Part shown: in pieces, positions 37,499 to 49,791 of the stretch
Layout: each line of letters begins with the position of its first letter
Position numbering within the stretch: position 1 is the stretch's first letter
Source of the DNA: Nitrospira sp.
GTDB taxonomy: Bacteria > Nitrospirota > Nitrospiria > Nitrospirales > Nitrospiraceae
Length of the DNA stretch: 64,000 nucleotides
Direction of reading: 5' to 3'
Assembly: GCA_022226955.1 (NCBI GenBank)
Contig: CP092079.1
Coordinates: 250,083-314,082, forward strand
Made by a program: the position numbers and the translations under genes
The notes under the pieces: model-generated
The model's input: the letters and a program-made list of their open reading frames with translations, nothing else
Database searches by the model: none
Told to the model about the DNA's origin: nothing

Positions 37499-39901
37499 TC
37501 ATTCCATGTGTGAAAGGGCCTGAGCCGCCGCCACCGCCGCCTGGCCGAGCGACAGTCCCCCATCGTTTGCCGGCACATGATGATGGGAGAGCACCGCGAA
37601 GCCGAGTCGCTCCAATCGCCGCGCCACTAACTCCGCTAACACTCGATTTTGGAAGACGCCCCCCGACAGTACGGCGTGCCGGATCGTCCGCTCGCCTTCA
37701 CAAGATTTGGCGATCTTTCCCGCCATCGCGCAGATGGCCATCGCCAGTCCTTTATGAAATCTGGCGGCGATGACTGGAGGCGGCGTCTGAAGCTGCAGGT
37801 CGCCGAGCAAGGCCTGCCACATGGCGAGCGGTTCGATATAGGGGATGCCGGCTCCCTTGTGCAGGGGAATGGTAAAGGGATAGGCCAGCGAATCGTCTTC
37901 CTGTTCCAGCGTCTCTCGGTCCACCAGGTGTTCTAGCTCGATGGCGGCTTGCCCTTCATAGCTGGCGCGATCCCGGCAGAGTCCAATGGCGGCGGCCACT
38001 GCATCGAAGAGCCGCCCGCAGGAGGAGGCCGGCGGGCTGTTGAGGCTGTGGGTGATCATGTTATCGAGAGTGCGGCGCGGCTTGGCATCGAGAAACGCAT
38101 AGAGGTCCAGTTCGACATAGTTCATGGCGAAGCGCGCCCATCCGAGCTCCGCCATGAGATGCGCGTAGGTGTTTCGCCAAGGTTCCCGCATTGCTTGTTC
38201 GCCTCCGAGCAGAGGCACCGGTTTGAACGTGCCCATGCGAGTGGCGGTTCGGTAATCGGCCAGCAAGAACTCCCCGCCCCAGAGCTGCCCGTCGTCGCCG
38301 TAGCCCAAGCCATCCAAGGCAATCCCCAGGACAGGAGGATGATCGAGGCTAATCCCATTGTCGATCAGGCAGGCGGCAATGTGCGCGTGATGATGTTGAA
38401 TCGCGCGCACCGGAAGCGACTGCTTGGCGGCGAGCGCGTATCCAGCTTTGCTCGACCGGTATTCAGGATGCCGGTCTACGGCGATCAGGTCCGGCGCATG
38501 GGCGAAGAGGCCGGCATAGTGCGCGATGGCTCGCCGATAGTCCGCGTGCGTTAGGGCATCGTCGAGATCGCCGATATGGTGCGAGAGTATCGCGCGGCCT
38601 CGGCGCAGGAGGCAAAACGTGTTCTTCAATTCGCTGCCCATCGCGAGCACGGCAGGCGCCTGGCCGAACCCGTCAGGCAGCAGGATTGGCGTCGGAGCAT
38701 AGCCGCGGCTGCGGCGGACGATGCGCGGCAGATTATTGGACATGGCGACAATCGAATCGTCGACTCGCTGCGCGATGGCGCGATCGTGCAGGAGGAAGTA
38801 TTCCGCGATGTGCCCTAACCCGGCTTTGGCGCTTTCGTTGTCGGTCCATTGCGGTTCATCGGCGCGATTGCCGCTGGTCAGCACAATCGGACGATCCATG
38901 CGGCGGAGCATCAGATGATGCAACGGTGTGTTCGGCAGCATCAGGCCCAACGTCCGCATGCCGGGCGCAACGGATGGAGCCACGGTTGCGCCGGCCTGTG
39001 TCTGCAAGAGGACAATCGGAGCGGCGGGGCTTTGCAGCAGCGCTTCTTCCGTTTCGGTGATCTGGCAATAGCGCCGGGCGACGGTGAGATCTCGCGCCAT
39101 GAGCGCGAAGGGTTTTCCCTCCCTGGCTTTCAGACGGCGCAACCTGGCCACCGCGCCTTCTTGCGTGGCATCGCAGGCCAGCTGGAATCCCCCGAGGCCT
39201 TTGATTGCGAGAATGTGGCCGCGCTGAAGGAGCGTGCAGGCGGCGTCCACGGCATCCAGCATCGAGAATACGTCGAAGGCGATGGGTTTGCCGTCGGCTC
39301 GTTCGAGCCAGGCTTTCGGTCCGCACGCATGGCAGGCAATCGGTTGCGCATGGAATCGGCGGTCGACGGGGTCGCGATATTCCGCCTCGCAGTCGGCGCA
39401 CATGGAAAAATCCGCCATGGTGGTGCCGGACCGGTCGTAAGGAATTTCCTGTTGAATCGTCAATCGTGGACCGCAGTGCGTGCAGTTGGTGAACGGATAG
39501 CGATAGCGGCGGGCGAAGGGATCGAAGATTTCCCGCAGGCAATCGGGGCAGCTTGCGGCGTCCGGCACAATGCCGGTTTCCACGTCGCCGGCCGTGCTGT
39601 CGAGAATGGTGAAGTTCGGAGGAATGCGTTCCAGCGGCAGCGGTTCCCACTGCACCTCATCGACTCTGGCGAGCATCGGAGGATGCGTTTTGATGTGATC
39701 GATGAATGCATCCAACTGCGAGGATGTTCCAACCGCGACGATCAGGACACCGGCGCCGTCGTTCCGGATGTGGCCGCGGATCTGCAGCCGGTGAGCTTCC
39801 CGCCAGACCATTGGGCGAAATCCGACGCCCTGCACCAGACCCTGCACGCGAATCTGAAGGGCGGCGATATCCGGCGCGCGCAACTGTTCTGCGGTGGTCA
39901 T
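37499..39901 (-). CDS. hypF: Carbamoyltransferase HypF
   Basis: The 800-residue protein has an N-terminal acylphosphatase domain (VQGLVQGVGFRPMVWREA). Two zinc fingers follow (CPDC..CTHC and CADC..CHAC near 107-190), then a YrdC-like domain (IKGLGGFQLACDAT) and a Kae1-like domain with HHHAHIAACL. HypF moves the carbamoyl group to HypE. It overlaps the NHL gene by four bases. Confidence 0.96.
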   Translation of the reverse strand: MTTAEQLRAPDIAALQIRVQGLVQGVGFRPMVWREAHRLQIRGHIRNDGAGVLIVAVGTSSQLDAFIDHIKTHPPMLARVDEVQWEPLPLERIPPNFTILDSTAGDVETGIVPDAASCPDCLREIFDPFARRYRYPFTNCTHCGPRLTIQQEIPYDRSGTTMADFSMCADCEAEYRDPVDRRFHAQPIACHACGPKAWLERADGKPIAFDVFSMLDAVDAACTLLQRGHILAIKGLGGFQLACDATQEGAVARLRRLKAREGKPFALMARDLTVARRYCQITETEEALLQSPAAPIVLLQTQAGATVAPSVAPGMRTLGLMLPNTPLHHLMLRRMDRPIVLTSGNRADEPQWTDNESAKAGLGHIAEYFLLHDRAIAQRVDDSIVAMSNNLPRIVRRSRGYAPTPILLPDGFGQAPAVLAMGSELKNTFCLLRRGRAILSHHIGDLDDALTHADYRRAIAHYAGLFAHAPDLIAVDRHPEYRSSKAGYALAAKQSLPVRAIQHHHAHIAACLIDNGISLDHPPVLGIALDGLGYGDDGQLWGGEFLLADYRTATRMGTFKPVPLLGGEQAMREPWRNTYAHLMAELGWARFAMNYVELDLYAFLDAKPRRTLDNMITHSLNSPPASSCGRLFDAVAAAIGLCRDRASYEGQAAIELEHLVDRETLEQEDDSLAYPFTIPLHKGAGIPYIEPLAMWQALLGDLQLQTPPPVIAARFHKGLAMAICAMAGKIAKSCEGERTIRHAVLSGGVFQNRVLAELVARRLERLGFAVLSHHHVPANDGGLSLGQAAVAAAQALSHME

Positions 39902-41106
39902 GCCGCTGCCTCCGGATGTAATGGCCGGATCATGATCCGATTGTTGCCGCTATCGGCGACGGCGATGGTTCCGTCGGCGAGCGAGAGGCCATAGGGCCAG
40001 CAGAGCGTGTCGGGCGAGGGAAAGGCCCATTGGTTGTCCCCTTTCATGCCGAACTGGGTCTGGCCGGCCAGCAGTCTCGCCGGCGCTCCGTTGGCGAGGT
40101 CGCGCGCATGCCATCCGAGCAGCCGGGAGTTGGCGGTATCGGCGGCCAGCAGCCAGGCATTGGCCGAGGCGATGCCGTACGGCATATTCAGCGTGCCGGC
40201 GTGAGGCCAATAGCGGCCCCCGTTATGATCCACCTGCGCGGCATCGGTCTGTCCGAGAATCACATCGCAGCTGGCCCCAGAATTCTCGGGCCAGGTCTGC
40301 CACACCATAATGCGATTATTACCTGCATCGGCGATGCAGAGACGCTCGCCCCACCGCGCAATGCCGTGCGGCCATCGCATGCTGGCATGTGACGGCATGC
40401 CTCCGGCGTTCTCATCGCGCTGGTGGAAATCGGGCTGGCCTAAGACCAGATCGGCCGGCTGTCCATTGCGAGTGGGCGGACTGTTCCAGATCAACACGCG
40501 CCGGTTGCCGGTATCCGCGACGATCAGACGATCGTCCCAGCTCGCCACGCCGTACGGCCAGTAGAGAGTGCTTGCCGATGCCGTCGCTTGTCCTCGGTTG
40601 ATCTGTACGGCATCGAAGGTCTCTTGCCCTAAAACGATATCCGGCGGGCAATGGCTTGCCATGGGAACCTGCCGCCAGATTAATACGCGATGGTTCCAGG
40701 CATCGGCCACCGCGAGGCCCTGGCCGTAGGCGGTCATTCCGGTTGGAACATTCAGGGTGGCGGCACTAGGAGCGCCTTTCGCATTGCGCCCCTCTGAATA
40801 GAAATCCGGCTGCCCGATCACCCAATCCGCGGGAGTGTCACTTGCTTGCGGGCAGGTGTGCCATCCAACGAGACGGTGGTGGCCGGTATCGGCAACCCAC
40901 AGCGGCCCCTTGTTCTGAAACAGGCAGCAGCCGCGCGGTCCAAACAATGTCTGGGTGGTGGGTGTCACGGGAATTGGAAAGCCCTGCTCGTCCCGGCTGT
41001 CGCCCAGTGCAATGCCGGTGCCTTCCCACAGTGGCAGCGGTTGCCGCGTATGCTGTTCTGGCAACAGCGGTTGTCGTGGCTGATGAAGGCGTACCGAGAT
41101 GGCCAT
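39898..41106 (-). CDS. NHL-repeat beta-propeller protein of the hydrogenase operon
   Basis: The 402-residue protein has at least six repeats with the NHL pattern, for example YGVASWDDRLIVADTGNRRV, HGIARWGERLCIADAGNNRI and YGLSLADGTIAVADSGNNRI, spaced by about 60 residues. They carry VLGQPDF/ILGQTD blades and should fold into a closed propeller. There is no signal peptide. It lies five bases from the NifU-Rieske gene. Such a propeller may be a docking platform for the hydrogenase; function unknown. Confidence 0.75.
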   Translation of the reverse strand: MAISVRLHQPRQPLLPEQHTRQPLPLWEGTGIALGDSRDEQGFPIPVTPTTQTLFGPRGCCLFQNKGPLWVADTGHHRLVGWHTCPQASDTPADWVIGQPDFYSEGRNAKGAPSAATLNVPTGMTAYGQGLAVADAWNHRVLIWRQVPMASHCPPDIVLGQETFDAVQINRGQATASASTLYWPYGVASWDDRLIVADTGNRRVLIWNSPPTRNGQPADLVLGQPDFHQRDENAGGMPSHASMRWPHGIARWGERLCIADAGNNRIMVWQTWPENSGASCDVILGQTDAAQVDHNGGRYWPHAGTLNMPYGIASANAWLLAADTANSRLLGWHARDLANGAPARLLAGQTQFGMKGDNQWAFPSPDTLCWPYGLSLADGTIAVADSGNNRIMIRPLHPEAAA

Positions 41107-41111
41107 GGTCC

Positions 41112-41996
41112 CTACCGTTGTAGCTGCACTTCCACGGTCGTGCCCATTACTCGAACCTGAATCGGCACCAGTTGCACTTCCGGCGCGGTCAAGCATTCTC
41201 CCGACGCAAGGTCGTATTGAAACCCATGATAGGGGCAGGTCACGATCCCTTCGGAAATCTGTCCCATATCGAGCGGCATGCCCATGTGCGCGCAGGCATT
41301 GTGGAAGCACGTTACTTGGTGCGCCTGGCGGCTGAGCAACAGCGAATGGCCTCGCAGCTCCACGGCCTTCATGCCGCGGTCGGGAATATCGTCGAGCGAG
41401 GCGGCGGCTTCCCACCCCTGCTCGCGGCTCAGCGAAAAAGGACTGATGAGTGAGGCGGTTGTGCGGTGGCCGTTGGGAGAGGTGTGCGCGCCGGCTATTT
41501 TCTTAATCGTCAGAATCTCCGGACAGTGGGCGCGGATCGCGGTTTCGATTCCTTCTGTCAGGGTGAGATTCGACGAAGGGCATCCGTCGCAGGCTCCGAG
41601 CAAGCGAATGTGCACCGTATCCGGAGGGTCGAGCGAGATGAGTTCGACGTTGCCTCCATGCCCTTGCAGCAAGGGGCGCACGGATGCGAGCGCCGATTCG
41701 ATCCGTTCCTGCAGCGAGGGTTTGACCAGTTCGAGATGCCGGAGGACCGCGTAGACGACTTCATCGCCGGCGAGAGACTTCAAGATTTCAAGGCCAGCCG
41801 GATCGGTTTTGAATGCGCGGATGAGCCGGGCGAAGGCTTCCTTATGCAGCCCATCGACTGCGTGCCGCAACGCCGCCACGGTTGCCCGACGGGAATCGTC
41901 CCATGAGTCCACAACGGTCTCGAGCTGCTCAAGAGGGGCCAGGAGAGAAGGCAGCGTCGGTGCGATGGTCGAGCGTTGAGCGGTTTGCTCGGACAT
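41112..41996 (-). CDS. NifU-like / Rieske [2Fe-2S] fusion protein
   Basis: The 294-residue protein has a helical N-terminus. Next comes a NifU C-terminal-like domain (GHGGNVELISLD, then C136-DG-C139) which can carry a transient Fe-S cluster. Last is a Rieske domain with C230-F-H232 and C254-PY-H257, in the order CxH then CxxH. It has no signal peptide. Start ATG 41996 has GAGG upstream; GTG 42005 is an alternative. It sits in the hydrogenase operon between two small membrane proteins and an NHL protein. It might deliver clusters, or accept electrons from the small subunit. Confidence 0.85.
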   Translation of the reverse strand: MSEQTAQRSTIAPTLPSLLAPLEQLETVVDSWDDSRRATVAALRHAVDGLHKEAFARLIRAFKTDPAGLEILKSLAGDEVVYAVLRHLELVKPSLQERIESALASVRPLLQGHGGNVELISLDPPDTVHIRLLGACDGCPSSNLTLTEGIETAIRAHCPEILTIKKIAGAHTSPNGHRTTASLISPFSLSREQGWEAAASLDDIPDRGMKAVELRGHSLLLSRQAHQVTCFHNACAHMGMPLDMGQISEGIVTCPYHGFQYDLASGECLTAPEVQLVPIQVRVMGTTVEVQLQR

Positions 41997-42006
41997 GGCG
42001 GTCACC

Positions 42007-42231
42007 TCATCGGTATTTCAAGTCTCGAAACAGCCGTGGTTGCAGCGCGCCCGCGCAAAATCCGGCGGCGGCGACAGCGACCCACAGTGAGCACCCCATC
42101 TTGACGAGCGCGATCACGATAGCCGCCGCCAGTCCAATGCCCACTCCGGCGAGCATCGCAACTTTGGGAAGATCGTGAAACAGCTTTCCTTTCAAAAACA
42201 GCTGAACGGAATTGCAAAACATATCGAACAT
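42007..42231 (-). CDS. Small membrane protein A of the hydrogenase operon
   Basis: The 74-residue protein has an amphipathic start (MFDMFCNSVQLFLKGKLFHD) and two hydrophobic segments (VAMLAGVGIGLAAAIVIALV and WVAVAAAGFCAGAL). It has no known motif. It lies 13 bases from a second tiny membrane protein. A membrane anchor for the soluble hydrogenase is a possible role. Confidence 0.65.
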   Translation of the reverse strand: MFDMFCNSVQLFLKGKLFHDLPKVAMLAGVGIGLAAAIVIALVKMGCSLWVAVAAAGFCAGALQPRLFRDLKYR

Positions 42232-42244
42232 GGCGGGCCTCCGT

Positions 42245-42472
42245 TTATAAGAGAAACGCGAGCATGACGAGTCCGATTAGGACGCCTGGCAACGATGCCA
42301 CGGGGCCGAAAAAGGCTCCCATCATCGCGGCCAGTTCGTTGCCCAGCGCGCTGCCGCCGACAACGATGCCGCCGAGCGCGCCGCCGAGCGCGCCTGTGAA
42401 GAGTCCCAATAGCAGAAGCAAGAGTCCGCTGAGCAGGTTCAAGTCATTGGTCGATGCGTTGAGTAATGTCAT
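42245..42472 (-). CDS. Small membrane protein B, Gly-rich
   Basis: The 75-residue protein starts MTLLNASTNDLNLLSGLLLL and has two hydrophobic segments. The first holds repeated small-residue motifs (GALGGALGGIVVGGSALG) that favour close helix packing. GGGGAG lies just upstream of its ATG. It is read in a different frame from the C-terminal region of the TPR gene shadow. It belongs to the hydrogenase operon; function unknown. Confidence 0.65.
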   Translation of the reverse strand: MTLLNASTNDLNLLSGLLLLLLGLFTGALGGALGGIVVGGSALGNELAAMMGAFFGPVASLPGVLIGLVMLAFLL

Positions 42473-42482
42473 GGCTCCCCTC

Positions 42483-43535
42483 CTATACAATGTCGTCTGT
42501 ATGCCGGTCGGCTGTGCCGCTGTGTGCGGGATCGTTGTGGGTGGCTGGCGGTGCTGTACTTGCCGGTTGCGCCAGCAAGTCATGCCGGATTTCGGCCAGG
42601 GCTTCTTCGGCGACGCGCATTTTCCCGCTGTCGCCGAAACGGCGGAAAATCTGTGCCGCCGCTTCGAGATACTGCATCGCCATTTCAAGGTTGCGCCGAT
42701 TACCCTGTTCCGGATGAGCCGGTTCATCGGGCAAGTTTCGCAGGGCGTTGGCCTTATTCGAGACCGTGTTGGCATATTCCAGCGGCGTCGCCGAGGCCGT
42801 GCGGACTCGAAGCGCTTCATCGTAGGCGCCCAGTGCGCGAAGATTATTGTCCACGCTGTGGCTGCTCGACGCATATTGCAGGGCATTTCCAAGATTGTTT
42901 TGCAGCATGGCGTACTCGTTCGGCTGATCGATGAGGGTGACCACCTTGAGCGCTTCTTCGAAGGATTGCACCGCGAGCGCTTCGCGCATATGGCCGCTTG
43001 GATCGGTCGCCGGCAGCGAGAGGTAGGCGGTGGCCAGATTGTTATGCAGGATGGCGAATTCCGTGGGATAGCGGTCGCGTGTAAACGTGCGCAGCGCCCG
43101 CAAGTAGGCGCCGATGGCGTCAGACATGCGGGCGCGGCCCGATGCGGCGAGGGCGTGCAGCGCCAGCCCGAGATTGAGTTCGATTTCAGCGGTCTCTTCC
43201 GGAGATCCGCCGTCACGAATGTTCGCGAGCGCCTGGGTAAATAACTGGCGAGCTTGTTCGACATGCTCCGTGCCATCGTGAGGAATGGCATTCAACGCGG
43301 TGCCTTTGCGCGCTTGGATTCGTCCGGTCAGCAGCGGATCGGTTTCATCTGCCGCATATTCGAGCGCGCGATCGTAGAGAGCGATCGCATGGTGCAGGTC
43401 TTCGATAGAGCGAGGCTTGCGTTGGAGCCCCATGGCGATTTCGATGAAGAGATCGATTTTGTCGCGACTGGATAAACCGGGGTCGTCGGCGGCAGCAAGT
43501 GCGGCTTTGACTTGTTCGTCGGATAAGGTGTTCAT
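42483..43535 (-). CDS. TPR-type protein of the hydrogenase operon
   Basis: The 350-residue soluble protein has at least five helix-turn-helix repeats, e.g. AIALYDRALEYAADETDPLL, ARQLFTQALANIRDG, AIGAYLRALRTFTRDRYPTE, SFEEALKVVTLIDQPNEYAM and ALGAYDEALRVRT. Each has the paired pattern NNLGNAL / NNLATAY. It should act as a scaffold for protein assembly. It follows a 135-base gap with two promoter-like elements, so it may be made both from the main operon promoter and on its own. Confidence 0.75.
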   Translation of the reverse strand: MNTLSDEQVKAALAAADDPGLSSRDKIDLFIEIAMGLQRKPRSIEDLHHAIALYDRALEYAADETDPLLTGRIQARKGTALNAIPHDGTEHVEQARQLFTQALANIRDGGSPEETAEIELNLGLALHALAASGRARMSDAIGAYLRALRTFTRDRYPTEFAILHNNLATAYLSLPATDPSGHMREALAVQSFEEALKVVTLIDQPNEYAMLQNNLGNALQYASSSHSVDNNLRALGAYDEALRVRTASATPLEYANTVSNKANALRNLPDEPAHPEQGNRRNLEMAMQYLEAAAQIFRRFGDSGKMRVAEEALAEIRHDLLAQPASTAPPATHNDPAHSGTADRHTDDIV

Positions 43536-43670: not shown

Positions 43671-44531
43671 TTATGACGAAGAGGAAATGGGCCAGCTTGT
43701 CACGAGGGCTGCACGCTGGTCATCCCATTGGAGAGAACCGGTCCATTCGCGGTCATCGTCTAACCCCTGCCCGCGAAAAAACTCTTGCGCGTGAATGACG
43801 CGGTCGCCTTGGGCGTTCCGCACCTTCATCAGCAACCCACCGGCTGCCGCATGGCGCACCGGCAAGAGCAAGAGCGTCTGTTCCTGCTTGAGCAGTACGA
43901 TGCACTCCAGTCCGGGAAAGTATCGGGCATAGGTCGATGCGTCGAGAAAAATATTTCCTTGCCGAACGGTCATACGCGCGCAGTTGTCCGACGCTGTGGC
44001 GCACTGGGCATCGAATGGAACGGCGTGAGGCAGCTGGTTCGTCTTGTCCCGAATGAGTTGCTTGATCATGTCGGCAACCCGGTTGGCGGCATGGGATACC
44101 TGAGGGCTCAGTCCCAATCCAAGCGAGACGGTTTCCGCCTCGATCAGATAGACCGTGATATCGCGAGGAAAGGCCTTGCCGAAAATATGACGTCCCGCAT
44201 ATAGAGCATGCTGCCAGCGAAAATCATGGAGGCTATAGCCCGGCTCTGGGCGGTTGATGACTTCTTCACCTGGGAGTTGGAAGATGGAGCCCGGTGGGGA
44301 ACTGCTGAGGCTGGCATCGATCATGATCAGCGCGGTCGCGCCTTTTGCTTTGAACATCACATCCATTCCGCCGGTGCCGGCATCGTAGACGGAGACTCCG
44401 CGAGGTTGTTCGGCTCGCACCCATTTCTGAAGTGCTTGGACGACGACGACTCCGGCTCCATCGTCGCGACGGTTGAGATTGCCGCATCCAATGACGGCGA
44501 TAGTTTCGGCGGGTGTCGCTAGATTCTCCAT
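43671..44531 (-). CDS. Hydrogenase maturation protease with extra C-terminal domain
   Basis: The product has 286 residues. The first 155 are a HybD/HupD-like endopeptidase: IAVIGCGNLNRRDDGAGVVV with the metal-binding acidic site, VYDAGTGGMDVM, and LIMIDASLSS. It removes the C-terminal tail of the large subunit after nickel insertion. The last 115 or so residues (from about 170, QGNIFLDASTYARYFPGLEC to the end) are not part of the usual protease and match nothing that I recognise. It starts inside the preceding four-cysteine gene (13-base overlap). Confidence 0.8.
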   Translation of the reverse strand: MENLATPAETIAVIGCGNLNRRDDGAGVVVVQALQKWVRAEQPRGVSVYDAGTGGMDVMFKAKGATALIMIDASLSSSPPGSIFQLPGEEVINRPEPGYSLHDFRWQHALYAGRHIFGKAFPRDITVYLIEAETVSLGLGLSPQVSHAANRVADMIKQLIRDKTNQLPHAVPFDAQCATASDNCARMTVRQGNIFLDASTYARYFPGLECIVLLKQEQTLLLLPVRHAAAGGLLMKVRNAQGDRVIHAQEFFRGQGLDDDREWTGSLQWDDQRAALVTSWPISSSS

Positions 44532-44848
44532 AATCGGCAGGACCAATCCTTTTCGACCGGCAGGTTCAGCTCGGGCAATTCGCAGAACCGCCGGTGCGTG
44601 ACGTAGTACATGCAGGTCTCGCACGACTGCGGCAAGTCGTCTCCTACGTCAGGCGGAATATAGGGGAAGAGGGTAAAGCCTGCGACCGTCAGTTTTTCGG
44701 CGAAGGCAGTCGGCGAAAGGCTTCGGAGGTGCGCGACGAGACGGATGACTTCTTCGCTGGTGTATGCCCGCGGCTCAATCTCGGTTTTGAGGCCGCTTTG
44801 CAACATGACACGCAGCACAGTTCGTAGGCTGTTGTCGCCGGTCGCCAT
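44519..44848 (-). CDS. Four-cysteine protein 2 (hydrogenase operon)
   Basis: The 109-residue protein is a paralogue of the gene at 44878. The C-terminal half holds C76-x2-C79-x9-C89-x14-C104, in CETCMYYVTHRRFCELPEL and DWSCRLWRI. The four Cys, aromatic context and spacing suggest an Fe-S or zinc site. The N-terminal half is helical. No signal peptide. It lies between hupL and the protease. I do not know the family name. Confidence 0.7.
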   Translation of the reverse strand: MATGDNSLRTVLRVMLQSGLKTEIEPRAYTSEEVIRLVAHLRSLSPTAFAEKLTVAGFTLFPYIPPDVGDDLPQSCETCMYYVTHRRFCELPELNLPVEKDWSCRLWRI

Positions 44849-44877
44849 GATTGCGTTCCCTCAACAAAAGGACGCAG

Positions 44878-45192
44878 TTAAATTCTCCAGAGTCGGCACC
44901 ACCAATCGGGTTCTACAGGCACGGCGAGTTCGGGAAGATCGCACCACTTTCTATGCACCAAGTAATACATGCACTCCAGGCAGCGCATTTGGTCTGGGCC
45001 ATAGGGGGTGTTGGTGAACCCTCCGATCACGAGTTTGGCGCGCAAGTCTTCCTGGGGCAACGCTCTCAATTCGTCCAAAATCTTGGCGAACTCGATATGT
45101 GTTTCGGGAAACGGTTCGACCTGTGTCTTGAGTCCGCTCTCTAAGAGGTGTGCGATCTTCCCTAGGAGGCGGTCTTCTTCTTCGGGACGCAT
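44878..45192 (-). CDS. Four-cysteine protein 1 (hydrogenase operon)
   Basis: The 104-residue protein has C71-x2-C74-x9-C84-x14-C99, the same spacing as its paralogue at 44519, and the same ending CRLWRI. ATG 45192 has AGAAGGGGGAT upstream; the longer in-frame reading to 45303 has no such site and is unlike the paralogue. It follows hupL directly. It could be an Fe-S electron carrier or an assembly factor for the hydrogenase. Confidence 0.7.
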   Translation of the reverse strand: MRPEEEDRLLGKIAHLLESGLKTQVEPFPETHIEFAKILDELRALPQEDLRAKLVIGGFTNTPYGPDQMRCLECMYYLVHRKWCDLPELAVPVEPDWWCRLWRI

Positions 45193-45307: not shown

Positions 45308-46903
45308 CTAGCCGATCTTAAAGCGGGCTAATTCCTTTCCTGTTTTCGCATCGTGCGCATGCACGGTGCAGACTAAGCATGAATCGAACGACCGGGCGAC
45401 ATGACCCACTTCAACAGGGTCGGTCGGGTCCGCAATCGGCGCGCCGATCAGCGCCTCTTCAATCGGTCCTCGCCGGCCTTGATGATCTCGAGGTCCCACA
45501 TTCCAGGTCGTCGGTGCGACGATCTGATAGTTTTTAATTTTTCCGCCTTTCACTTCGATCCAATGACAGAGCGCGCCACGAGCGGCTTCCGTTGCGCCCC
45601 ACCCACGGCCGTCGCGCTCTTGAGGCTTGATGTACCAGGGCTCATTGAGCCGGAATTCACGCAGGCAGCGTTCGGCCTGCCGGTATAACTTCACGGTCTC
45701 GTGCATGCGCGCAAGCTGGCGGAGGTGCAGGCTCGCGCCGCCCATTTGCTTATAGGCGTCGAGGATGAATCCGTCCGCATGTTGCCAGGCTTCTCCATGC
45801 GTGCCTCCCGCCACCATCTGTCGGGCGAACGGGCCGGCCTCTAACCGGCCGATGTCCATATGGCTGACGGCGGTGGCCCAGGAGTAGGCGCCGTTAAAAT
45901 CGATGTGATTCTTCGACTTGGGCTTGGTGGTGCGGTCGAACGGATGGACGTTGTCGCTGCCCTCTTCATACCAGGCATGCGAGGTGTTCTCCCGCGCGAA
46001 TTCCTGGCTCATGAGTTTGTGCATGCCGGTGGCGCCGTCGTAAATGCCGCTTTTCATAATGACCGCGCTGTTGCGGCTCTCGATCGTGGGCTTTTGATAT
46101 TTGTCTTCGTGCGGCAAGTAGCCCCAGGACACGTATTTGCCGAGTCCCGCTCCATATTTGTCGAGCCCAATATCCAAGCCCATGCGCCAATAGAGTCCTA
46201 AGTCCGAGTTGAGATGGGCCGGGCTTTCTTCCAACCAGGCATTGAAGTCGGCGTAGGTCTTAATCTGTTCATACCGCTCCAAGGAGCAGCCGAGCCAGAT
46301 GGGCTCCAGCCAGTTTTTCTTGAAGTATTCCAGGAGCGACACCGACCGGGTAATGTCGGCCAGCGTTGGCGCGCACATGACGCCGCCCGGCACCATGTAG
46401 CTGGAGTGCGGCCATTGGCCGCCAAGCAGGGCGTAGATTTCCACGGGCTTCCCTGAGATGGTAACGCCGGTTTCGTACGAAGTTCCGGTAAACGGAGCAA
46501 AGCGTTTACAGGCTTCATCGTAGAAGCGGCTACCGCGATATTTTTTATTCGTGAGGTCGATGGCATAGAGTCCATAGAAGTACCGCGGCTGGCTCTGCAA
46601 GCTTTCGACGAGCTGTCCGAGGTTTCTCGCCAGGATGGCGTTTCGCGGAACGGTGGTTTGCCAGGCGGTGTCCAGTGCCCAGGCGGCACAGGTCAGATGG
46701 GAAGCGCCGCAGATGCCGCAGGCCCGAGGCGTGACCACGAGGCCGGCTTGCGGGTCTTTATCGCGTAAAATAATTTCGAATCCGCGGAAGAGCTCCGCTT
46801 GTGTCCAGGCATTGGTGACGACCCCATTGTCGATTTCTACGCGGACGTCAAGATCGCCTTCTACGCGGCCGACGGGTGAAATGTCGAGTGTTTGAACAGC
46901 CAT
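45308..46903 (-). CDS. hupL: Uptake [NiFe]-hydrogenase large subunit, group 2a-like
   Basis: The 531-residue catalytic subunit has GRVEGDL (11-17) and the L1 motif R60-ACGIC-G with C62 and C65. The L2 motif at the C-terminus is DSC509LVC512TVH515. These four Cys bind Ni and Fe. A 16-residue tail after His515 would be removed by the maturation protease. The sequence and L1/L2 forms fit group 2 uptake enzymes. It is 48 bases downstream of hupS, with AAAGGAG before ATG. Confidence 0.95.
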   Translation of the reverse strand: MAVQTLDISPVGRVEGDLDVRVEIDNGVVTNAWTQAELFRGFEIILRDKDPQAGLVVTPRACGICGASHLTCAAWALDTAWQTTVPRNAILARNLGQLVESLQSQPRYFYGLYAIDLTNKKYRGSRFYDEACKRFAPFTGTSYETGVTISGKPVEIYALLGGQWPHSSYMVPGGVMCAPTLADITRSVSLLEYFKKNWLEPIWLGCSLERYEQIKTYADFNAWLEESPAHLNSDLGLYWRMGLDIGLDKYGAGLGKYVSWGYLPHEDKYQKPTIESRNSAVIMKSGIYDGATGMHKLMSQEFARENTSHAWYEEGSDNVHPFDRTTKPKSKNHIDFNGAYSWATAVSHMDIGRLEAGPFARQMVAGGTHGEAWQHADGFILDAYKQMGGASLHLRQLARMHETVKLYRQAERCLREFRLNEPWYIKPQERDGRGWGATEAARGALCHWIEVKGGKIKNYQIVAPTTWNVGPRDHQGRRGPIEEALIGAPIADPTDPVEVGHVARSFDSCLVCTVHAHDAKTGKELARFKIG

Positions 46904-46951: not shown

Positions 46952-47914
46952 CTAGACGATGAACATATCCTGCTCGGCCCACGCGGGGGCCGCGTTTTTG
47001 GCGGCGCCGGTGAGCGCGATGTACCCCTTCTTGTCGACTCCCGTGGGCAAGTCCTTGGGAATGCCCATGACCGTTTGCGTCTTGAACACTGTGCCGGGAG
47101 CGAGATCGAAGAAGGGAAACTCAGGTTCCGTGCAGCCGAGGCACGGCATGCCAGATCTGGTTTTTGAGGATTGCCGATTCCATAAAATGCGATTGCAGGG
47201 CGAGTGAGTCATCGGACCACGGCAGCCGAGGTCGTAGTAGAGACAGCCCTTCCGCTGCCCGAACTCTGTCGCGGAGACTTTATACGCGAAGTGCATATTG
47301 CGCGTGCATCCGGTCTGCGTGAAGCTCTGGAAAAATGTTTTGGGCCGTTGCAGTTCGTCGAGCCCGATTTCCCCGCCCCGTCCCGTGGCGACCGCGACGA
47401 CAATTTGCGTAATCCAGTCGGGGTGCGCGGGACAGCCGGGAATGTTGATGACGGGAAGGCCGGCCTTGGAGCGGAATTCCTTGCCCAGAAAGCCGCCGTG
47501 ATTTCGCTTGAGGAACTGAAGGCCCTGCGATTCGCTCGGATTCGGCGCGGTCGCCGGAATGCCGCCCCAGGTGGCGCAGTCCCCGATGGCAACGACAAAT
47601 GTCGCGACGCCACTTAGGGCTTTGACCCATTGCTTCATGGGCTTGCCGGCAAAGCGATTCCATTCTCCGGTGCCGTTCGGCGCATTCACGACGCTGCCCT
47701 CGAAGACGAAGATATCGAGAGGCGTGTTCCCGGAGACGCAATCGTTCAGCAGGCGTTGGAGATTGTCGCCAAGCTCGACGCCTAGCGACGGGTGCCAGAG
47801 CACATTAATGCCAAAGTCGGTGACGAGGTCGCACGCGCTCGGTTCTTCCGCGTTCAGGAAGGACATCGTGTTGCCGGAACAAGCTCCGCCTTGAAGCCAC
47901 AGCAAATTGGCCAT
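46952..47914 (-). CDS. hupS: Uptake [NiFe]-hydrogenase small subunit, group 2a-like
   Basis: The 320-residue protein carries the Fe-S relay. It lacks a Tat signal, since it starts directly MANLLWLQGGACSGNT, so the enzyme is expected in the cytoplasm. The proximal-cluster motif reads C12-SGN15, where many hydrogenases have CxxC. The medial and distal cysteines are in SPCNRILW and MPCLGCTEPEFPFFD. From memory, mycobacterial group 2a enzymes show the same change and [3Fe-4S] clusters. GGAGGACTTTC lies before the ATG, and a sigma-54 promoter is at 47972-47987. Confidence 0.94.
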   Translation of the reverse strand: MANLLWLQGGACSGNTMSFLNAEEPSACDLVTDFGINVLWHPSLGVELGDNLQRLLNDCVSGNTPLDIFVFEGSVVNAPNGTGEWNRFAGKPMKQWVKALSGVATFVVAIGDCATWGGIPATAPNPSESQGLQFLKRNHGGFLGKEFRSKAGLPVINIPGCPAHPDWITQIVVAVATGRGGEIGLDELQRPKTFFQSFTQTGCTRNMHFAYKVSATEFGQRKGCLYYDLGCRGPMTHSPCNRILWNRQSSKTRSGMPCLGCTEPEFPFFDLAPGTVFKTQTVMGIPKDLPTGVDKKGYIALTGAAKNAAPAWAEQDMFIV

Positions 47915-48196: not shown

Positions 48197-49669
48197 TTAC
48201 GTGCGAGAGACGGTGGCGTCAGGAGCCGCCGCCAGTTTATACCGGCGAATTTTGTTCGCAAGGCCGACGCGCGACAGGCCCAGTTCCTTGGCGACTTTGC
48301 TTTGATTCCACCGGTACCGCACGAGCATTTCTGCGACCACTTGCGCTTCGAGGCGCTCAACTTTTTGTTTGAGTGTCCCGCCGGCATGAATCAAATTCAA
48401 TTCTTTCCGCCGTGGGTCCAGAGGCAGGACTTTCGCCAAATCGTCGGACAGATGTTCGGTCGACAAAAACTCGCCATCGCCGGCGAGCGCAACCATGCGC
48501 CGGATCTCGGTCTCCAGTTCGCGCACATTTCCGTGAAACGGATAGGCTTGCAGCTGCCGCATGACTTGCACCGTGATTCCCGCGATCCGTCGGTTCAACC
48601 GTTCCGCGTACTTTCTCGAAAAGTGCTCGGCCAGGACGGGAATATCGTCGGTCCGGTTGCGCAAGGGAGGAATGGTTAACTCAAATCCTCTGAGGCGATA
48701 GTAGAGATCTTTTCTGAAGGAGCCTTGAGCCACCAGGTCTTTGATGGGCCGGTTGGATGCCGCGATAATCCTGACGTTCGCGCGTTTGGTCCGTTCCGAT
48801 CCGAGGGGTTTGACCTCCCCTTCTTGCAGGAACCGCAGCAGGCTGACTTGAAACGACGGCGAGACCTCAGAGACTTCATCCAGAAATACGGTGCCTCCAT
48901 CGGCCGCGACGAATAGACCCAGCCGGTCGCCGATGGCTCCCGTGAAGGCGCCGCGCTTATGTCCAAACAGCTCCGATTGCAGCAGTGCATCCGGCAAGGC
49001 TCCGCAATTCTGTGCAAGAAACGGGAAGGCCTGGCGTTCGCTGAATCCATGAACGGCCCGCGCCATGAGCTCTTTGCCGGTGCCGGTCTCCCCTTCGATC
49101 AGCACCGGCAGGTCGGTGGCGGCGGACTTTCTGGCCAGGTTGCAGACCTCTAGCATGGCGTCGCTGGCGAAGACGAGTTGATCGAATTCGTAGCTGTCGC
49201 GAATGAGTTTGGTGAGCGCTCCCGTGTGGTTGTGAAAGGCGCCGTCGGAGAGTTTCAGGTCGCGGCTGAGCATCCGGTGCCGTCGCGACAGTTCCCGGCT
49301 TTCGAGCGCCCGGTCGATGAGCAAGCGAAGATGCCATGGGGGGCACGGCGTCGGAATGACGTGATACACGGCGGCTTGCCGAATGATGTTCATGACCTGC
49401 GCCGGCTCGCGGGAGGCGGTCAGGAGAATGCGCACGATATCGGGATAGCGGACACGGGCATTTCGAAAGAACTCGACGCCCTGCACATCGGTGACGGTCT
49501 CGTCGAATAAGATGAGATCGATTTTTTCTTTGGCGAGCGTCGTCCAGGCTTCCTGGCCTGTTGAGGTACCGAGTACGCGGTAGTCGTTTTTGAGGTAGCC
49601 AGCCAGTGTTTTGCGAACGGCAGGATCGGATGCGACGATGAGAAGCGTTTCCTCGTCTCGACGAGACAT
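48197..49669 (-). CDS. Sigma-54-dependent response regulator, HoxA/HupR-like
   Basis: The 490-residue protein has an N-terminal receiver (1-120), an AAA+ domain with Walker A GETGTGKE, GAFTGA for sigma-54 contact and FLDEVSEV, and a Fis-type C-terminal HTH (WNQSKVAKELGLSRVGLANK). In the receiver the acceptor D56 (DLILFDE) remains, but the acidic pair is A13-S14 and the conserved Lys is T107. It sits directly upstream of the hydrogenase operon on the same strand and is the obvious activator of its promoter. No kinase gene is next to it. Confidence 0.88.
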   Translation of the reverse strand: MSRRDEETLLIVASDPAVRKTLAGYLKNDYRVLGTSTGQEAWTTLAKEKIDLILFDETVTDVQGVEFFRNARVRYPDIVRILLTASREPAQVMNIIRQAAVYHVIPTPCPPWHLRLLIDRALESRELSRRHRMLSRDLKLSDGAFHNHTGALTKLIRDSYEFDQLVFASDAMLEVCNLARKSAATDLPVLIEGETGTGKELMARAVHGFSERQAFPFLAQNCGALPDALLQSELFGHKRGAFTGAIGDRLGLFVAADGGTVFLDEVSEVSPSFQVSLLRFLQEGEVKPLGSERTKRANVRIIAASNRPIKDLVAQGSFRKDLYYRLRGFELTIPPLRNRTDDIPVLAEHFSRKYAERLNRRIAGITVQVMRQLQAYPFHGNVRELETEIRRMVALAGDGEFLSTEHLSDDLAKVLPLDPRRKELNLIHAGGTLKQKVERLEAQVVAEMLVRYRWNQSKVAKELGLSRVGLANKIRRYKLAAAPDATVSRT

Positions 49670-49791
49670 GCAACTCCCCTTGCATGATGATAACGGAGTA
49701 TGCAGTGTAGCAACTCCGCGGCGCTGAGGCAAGATGAGAGATAGCCTGTGTTATTTCAGCGATGTCAGGCTGCCGCAGGGTTCAATCTGGA

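Follow-up and report, generated by a model that had tools for sequence, protein, structure and literature searches.

The two small four-cysteine proteins encoded beside the hydrogenase genes of this genome, here called CysA and CysB, may be cytoplasmic subunits with the fold of the high-potential iron-sulfur proteins (HiPIPs), through whose predicted [4Fe-4S] clusters electrons would leave a Huc-type (group 2a) [NiFe]-hydrogenase, a reading to which we give an even chance of being right. The genes lie within the window, by which is meant the whole stretch of 64,000 nucleotides that was analysed, in a host genome that consists of one contig of 3.6 Mb and has its closest matches in Nitrospira. 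They belong to an operon in which the genes follow one another in this order:

46952-47914, minus strand: hupS, small subunit (Fe-S clusters), whose closest solved relative is HucS of mycobacterial Huc
45308-46903, minus strand: hupL, large subunit of a Huc-type (group 2a) NiFe hydrogenase
44878-45192, minus strand: cysA, 104 aa, predicted HiPIP-like, C-x2-C-x9-C-x14-C; the conserved paralogue, adjoining hupL
44519-44848, minus strand: cysB, 109 aa, predicted HiPIP-like, cysteine spacing as in CysA; the faster evolving paralogue, sometimes absent elsewhere
43671-44531, minus strand: HycI/HupD-type maturation protease with a C-terminal extension
42483-43535, minus strand: TPR-like accessory protein, kept in the operon
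42245-42472, minus strand: TM2, 75 aa hydrophobic membrane protein, also in cyanobacterial loci
42007-42231, minus strand: TM1, 74 aa hydrophobic membrane protein, also in cyanobacterial loci
41112-42005, minus strand: hucE-like gene, NifU domain and Rieske [2Fe-2S] domain
39898-41184, minus strand: NHL-repeat accessory protein, kept in the operon; its start is approximate, the open reading frame being longer
37499-39901, minus strand: hypF, maturation protein, with which the conserved gene order ends

The enzyme is assigned to group 2a because both of its subunits are closest to Huc by a wide margin. The best PDB sequence matches are the Huc entries 7utd/7uur/7uus, at an E-value of 3e-186 for HupL (next best 8e-65) and of 5e-159 for HupS (next best 8e-35). 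Both small genes are found on the minus strand between hupL and the protease gene, where the preliminary description had placed them, with 115 bp separating hupL from the start of cysA, a gap of 29 bp between cysA and cysB, and an overlap of 13 bp between the start of the protease gene and the stop codon region of cysB. The C-terminal extension of the protease (43671-44531), of about 100 aa, is a separate small open reading frame at most related loci, and a sigma-54-type regulator gene upstream of hupS (48197-49672 in the window) is also kept at most of them.

CysA and CysB had been described as tandem paralogues that share the signature C-x2-C-x9-C-x14-C and the ending CRLWRI, and both features are present in both proteins. 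Their paralogy is far beyond chance, in that CysA as a query retrieves CysB from its own genome at an E-value of 1.3e-23, with 49% identity over residues 13-104; the statement that the two differ widely elsewhere was too strong, since in alignment they are 45% identical overall. A third copy was not found in the genome. Neither protein has a match in Pfam or NCBIfam at E-values up to 10, and in the plasmid records that were read they are annotated as hypothetical proteins.

Central to the proposed role is the predicted fold. The AlphaFold models of CysA and CysB have pLDDT values of 95.8 and 92.2, respectively, and when these predicted models were given a second look with VIA, which works on Foldseek's own list such that a fold missed by Foldseek cannot show up there, HiPIPs made up all 13 of the 13 entries listed for CysA (Z 4.0-4.7) and all 14 of the 14 listed for CysB (Z 4.0-5.5), the Z-scores as a whole (4.0-5.5) being modest. 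With CysA as query, Foldseek itself returned no significant match in the PDB; the best match to CysB was the HiPIP 1hpi with a probability of 0.63, which is not significant. At the level of sequence neither protein has a direct match among the solved structures of the PDB, the nearest matches being insignificant. The persuasive point is that two separate models both land on one rare, small four-cysteine fold.

Comparison of profiles leads in the same direction. Over the full length, hhalign against HiPIPs returned a 9-column core only, and therefore the 47-residue C-terminal part was aligned with 16 HiPIPs taken from genomes. In this alignment each of the four cysteines, like the final aromatic residue, pairs with its counterpart in the HiPIPs (pairwise E 2e-4, probability 44%), with a score that is reached by none of 300 cysteine-preserving column shuffles. 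The mean HiPIP-HMM score likewise exceeds 500 of 500 cysteine-preserving shuffles; if the shuffling spares the aromatic pair after CxxC as well, the observed value is reached in 2 of 500 cases, so that much of the HMM signal comes from the stretch CxxC-x-[YF]. Among Pfam families it is HIPIP (PF01355) that is matched by most members, namely 7 of 87, with a best E-value of 0.057 that falls short of the cut-off, and this family has no match in the host genome. The resemblance to HiPIPs at which the preliminary description had hinted is thus strengthened by the two structure models and by the hhalign pairing of the four cysteines, with the Pfam signal remaining weak and short of its cut-off.

Small four-cysteine proteins are often zinc binders, and one may ask whether CysA and CysB are structural proteins in which the cysteines hold zinc and not an Fe-S cluster; a PHD zinc finger (E 4.1) is indeed among the insignificant nearest PDB sequence matches. 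A match to a known zinc-ribbon or non-redox family, which would have told against the original Fe-S proposal, was looked for by profile and none occurred. No zinc family is significant by profile or found among the structural matches listed, an absence that alone is compatible with zinc. With the modelled fold leading to HiPIPs only among the entries listed, and with the genes strictly linked to the operon of a redox enzyme, zinc binding appears improbable, and CysA and CysB would most likely each bind one [4Fe-4S] cluster via the four invariant cysteines.

A scan of genome contigs yielded 63 loci of the family, in Nitrospirota, Pseudomonadota and Acidobacteriota together with one Melainabacterium, the second copy at each locus being found by a whole-protein profile. 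At least two copies are present by profile at 54 of the 63 loci and a single copy at the other 9. The strict spacing C-x2-C-x9-C-x14-C, to which the preliminary description had drawn attention, is kept in essentially every member across these loci, part of this conservation arising by construction since the search motifs lay inside the cysteine stretch. Of the departures, L018_1 has a frame break and L012_2 an ambiguous base, and in L040_2 an additional cysteine upstream does no more than shift the pattern match. In 87 members the invariant residues, in CysA numbering, are G58, the four cysteines, Y76, P87, P92, W97 and W102.

The two copies represent two types. In a tree of 115 rows one branch, with support of 99/99, separates all upstream from all downstream copies, and the CysA and CysB types have thus split once. 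Single-copy loci are of the A type, CysB having been lost several times and CysA kept; in Methylocapsa and Rhizobacter, for instance, the protease gene follows directly after cysA, without cysB. As CysA stands alone at several loci, the heterodimer that had been suggested for the pair is not, as an obligate assembly, general. A Kangiella MAG (L020, 9272-10306) has three copies in tandem, of which two belong to the A type and one to the B type. At two other loci (L052, 10359-10586; L058, 2304-2531) CysB takes a short form of 76 aa, which is without the N-terminal helices and keeps the four cysteines, and these forms support the idea of a separable C-terminal cluster domain. The hup loci L006, L007 and L008 are near-identical and come from MAGs that bear the names Chromatiales, Mariprofundus and Porticoccaceae, which suggests either mis-binning or recent transfer.

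The tie between this family and the hydrogenase is close. At nearly all loci cysA comes directly after hupL, and all of those with readable context are hydrogenase operons, the exceptions being L064, which has hupS only, and L063 (3916-4236), a diverged lone CysA in a Hyphomicrobium MAG for which no hydrogenase genes were found nearby, a full hup locus (L054) being present in the same MAG. Within the sampled Nitrospirales the CysA/CysB pair and HupL are found in the identical 6 of 146 genomes, and within the sample of Alphaproteobacteria in the identical 2 of 337. Among plasmids the pair is present in 12 of 12 records with a HupL that is 73-77% identical and in 0 of 5 where HupL is 55-57% identical (Mycobacterium, Thermus, Runella, Sulfobacillus and Hymenobacter). 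The sampled Cyanobacteriota have a HupL of 73-82% identity in 29 of 194 genomes and CysA in one, the Melainabacterium. Since the cyanobacterial HupSL works without CysA and CysB, the enzyme does not in general need them.

How, then, does such an enzyme reach the membrane? In mycobacteria HucM, a coiled-coil stalk, joins Huc into an oligomer and reaches the membrane (PMC10017518). At the Mycobacterium locus hucS is immediately preceded by a DUF1641 gene, and a similar gene is present at the Thermus locus; from the place of the former, HucM would be the DUF1641 protein. CysA and CysB are missing from these HucM-type loci of Mycobacterium and Thermus. The host genome lacks HucM, with no DUF1641 protein found in it, and among the tested genomes with CysA/CysB or from cyanobacteria a single one (G020) has DUF1641, on another contig. 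Among the small number of HucM loci examined, HucM and CysA/CysB were not found together at one hup locus.

This pattern, in the cases tested, of one without the other would suit an arrangement in which CysA and CysB are the local counterpart of HucM, acting as an oligomerising scaffold by which HupSL is attached to the membrane and in which the cluster is incidental. Both systems do place an extra small subunit gene beside the same type of hydrogenase, and coupling to the quinone pool is the role attached to both. They differ in that the sequences are unrelated, HucM being a coiled-coil stalk and the DUF1641 copies that were read having no cysteines. CysA and CysB have no Pfam match to HucM/DUF1641 (PF07849) and their homology to HucM was rejected, with no Huc match for them in the PDB sequence searches. 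Moreover, cyanobacteria have neither HucM nor CysA/CysB, and TM1 and TM2 are better candidates for docking at the membrane, such that a purely scaffolding function is judged very improbable.

TM1 and TM2 occur at cyanobacterial loci too, and they hold the same place as asr0689 and asr0690 of Nostoc; they are candidates for docking this type of hydrogenase at the membrane. CysA and CysB were also considered as equivalents of asr0689/asr0690 (PMC2408588) and this was rejected, the latter being two-TM proteins that correspond to TM1/TM2. There appear to be two architectures, the HucM type and a TM1/TM2 type that comes with or without CysA/CysB.

In group 1 hup operons the place after hupL is taken by hupC, which encodes a cytochrome b electron acceptor, and it is this place that cysA holds here. 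At one locus, in a Gallionellaceae MAG (L064, 4510-7177), hupS is intact, hupL is missing and the gene that comes after hupS encodes a 419-aa protein with a C-terminal CysA domain; this ties CysA to HupS rather than to HupL, on the strength of a single metagenome-assembled contig and with a partial hupL elsewhere in the same genome. For the first 314 residues of the fusion protein neither Pfam nor NCBIfam gives a match. The opposite strand encodes response regulators together with a transporter-histidine kinase hybrid, and no such fusion was found in viral contigs. The fusion protein could be an H2 or redox sensor.

It is the HiPIP-like fold, the strict linkage to hupSL, the absence of HucM and the L064 locus that together point to an electron outlet. 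In the proposed scheme, electrons from H2 would leave the clusters of HupS for CysA, and for CysB where it is present, and would then be carried towards the quinone pool by the Rieske protein HucE, by TM1/TM2 or by both. The cluster, the contact with HupS, the direction of electron flow and the place of HucE and TM1/TM2 in the chain are steps that we infer; HucE is already a candidate acceptor (PMC6883350). More broadly, and with confidence that falls somewhat short of even, a family of cytoplasmic proteins with the HiPIP fold, as yet without a name and split into two types by an early duplication, may be the physiological route by which electrons leave those group 2a hydrogenases of Nitrospira, Acidobacteria and Proteobacteria that lack HucM. 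The atmospheric-H2 enzyme would then have lineage-specific outlets, with HucM in mycobacteria, CysA/CysB here and neither in cyanobacteria.

A member of the family has been met before. In the 2020 multi-omics paper on A. ferrooxidans (PMC7735108) the gene DN052_04130 near hupLS is called a putative HiPIP. Its product was detected there and increased when cells grew anaerobically on H2 with ferric iron, and either it or a Rieske protein is suggested as the missing electron link. Matching of the DN052 genes by gene counting on an A. ferrianus locus (L027) makes DN052_04130 probably, indeed almost certainly, CysA by gene order, and on the same basis DN052_04125 would be CysB. The parts of that paper that were read deal with one protein in one species, with no second HiPIP, fold, spread, signal or comparison with HucM; the present analysis adds a second HiPIP-like copy and its early divergence from the first, evidence from structure models, the finding that a signal is lacking, the distribution, and the comparison with HucM. 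For HucM-less group 2a hydrogenases this provides testable candidates, with a predicted cofactor, for the hand-over of electrons in hosts such as Nitrospira, Bradyrhizobium, Hyphomicrobium, Methylocapsa and relatives of Acidithiobacillus.

With the classical HiPIPs (PF01355), CysA and CysB share the predicted fold, the cysteine order C-x2-C-xn-C-xn-C, the register of the four cysteines, an aromatic residue soon after CxxC and a final C-x2-[WYF]. The spacing is x9/x14, compared with mostly x8-14/x12-13 in the HiPIPs that were fetched. At the last cysteine the PROSITE HiPIP pattern is G-[YW]-C-x2-[FYW], and G-[WY]-C is present in 16 of 16 fetched HiPIPs, whereas the family has W-[WYS]-C-x2-W, in which the G is absent. 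The fetched HiPIPs carry twin-arginine leaders, whereas CysA and CysB have no Tat signal and are thus predicted to be cytoplasmic; neither contains a hydrophobic segment, with maximal Kyte-Doolittle values of 0.26 and 0.86 over 19 residues. Unlike classical HiPIPs, they also have an extra helical N-terminal part, fail the gathering cut-off of PF01355 and are tied to a hydrogenase operon. With the signal and the G missing, the spacing slightly off and PF01355 failed, the models and sequences call for the term HiPIP-like and not for that of a HiPIP.

Accessory subunits that are cytoplasmic, have the HiPIP fold and carry [4Fe-4S] clusters are known from the glycyl radical enzymes BSS, HPAD and MASS (PMC12358834). 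BSS beta/gamma, HPAD gamma and MASS beta/gamma resemble CysA and CysB in being cytoplasmic and HiPIP-like, with two serving one large catalytic enzyme; they differ in belonging to another enzyme and in implying no role in a respiratory chain. CysA and CysB were not found beside a glycyl radical enzyme, all readable loci being hydrogenase operons. As such subunits exist, and as cysA and cysB adjoin the protease gene, real weight stays with the alternative, less likely in our view, that the two proteins are HiPIP-like subunits whose [4Fe-4S] clusters stabilise or mature HupS/HupL, through cluster insertion or protection from O2, with no respiratory relay. The genes stand directly before the protease gene and overlap with it, in an operon of accessory proteins, and a comparable accessory block of Nostoc has been proposed to mature the small subunit (PMC2408588). 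Against this, the close cyanobacterial HupSL is presumably matured without CysA and CysB, a cluster fold conserved in both copies exceeds the need of a chaperone, and the contig with the orphan HupS and the CysA fusion is without the protease. If CysA and CysB do provide the electron exit from HupS, the HiPIP fold, mainly known as a periplasmic electron carrier, would be extended to a cytoplasmic hydrogenase partner, and this would suggest that lineages differ in how one type of enzyme is wired to the membrane.
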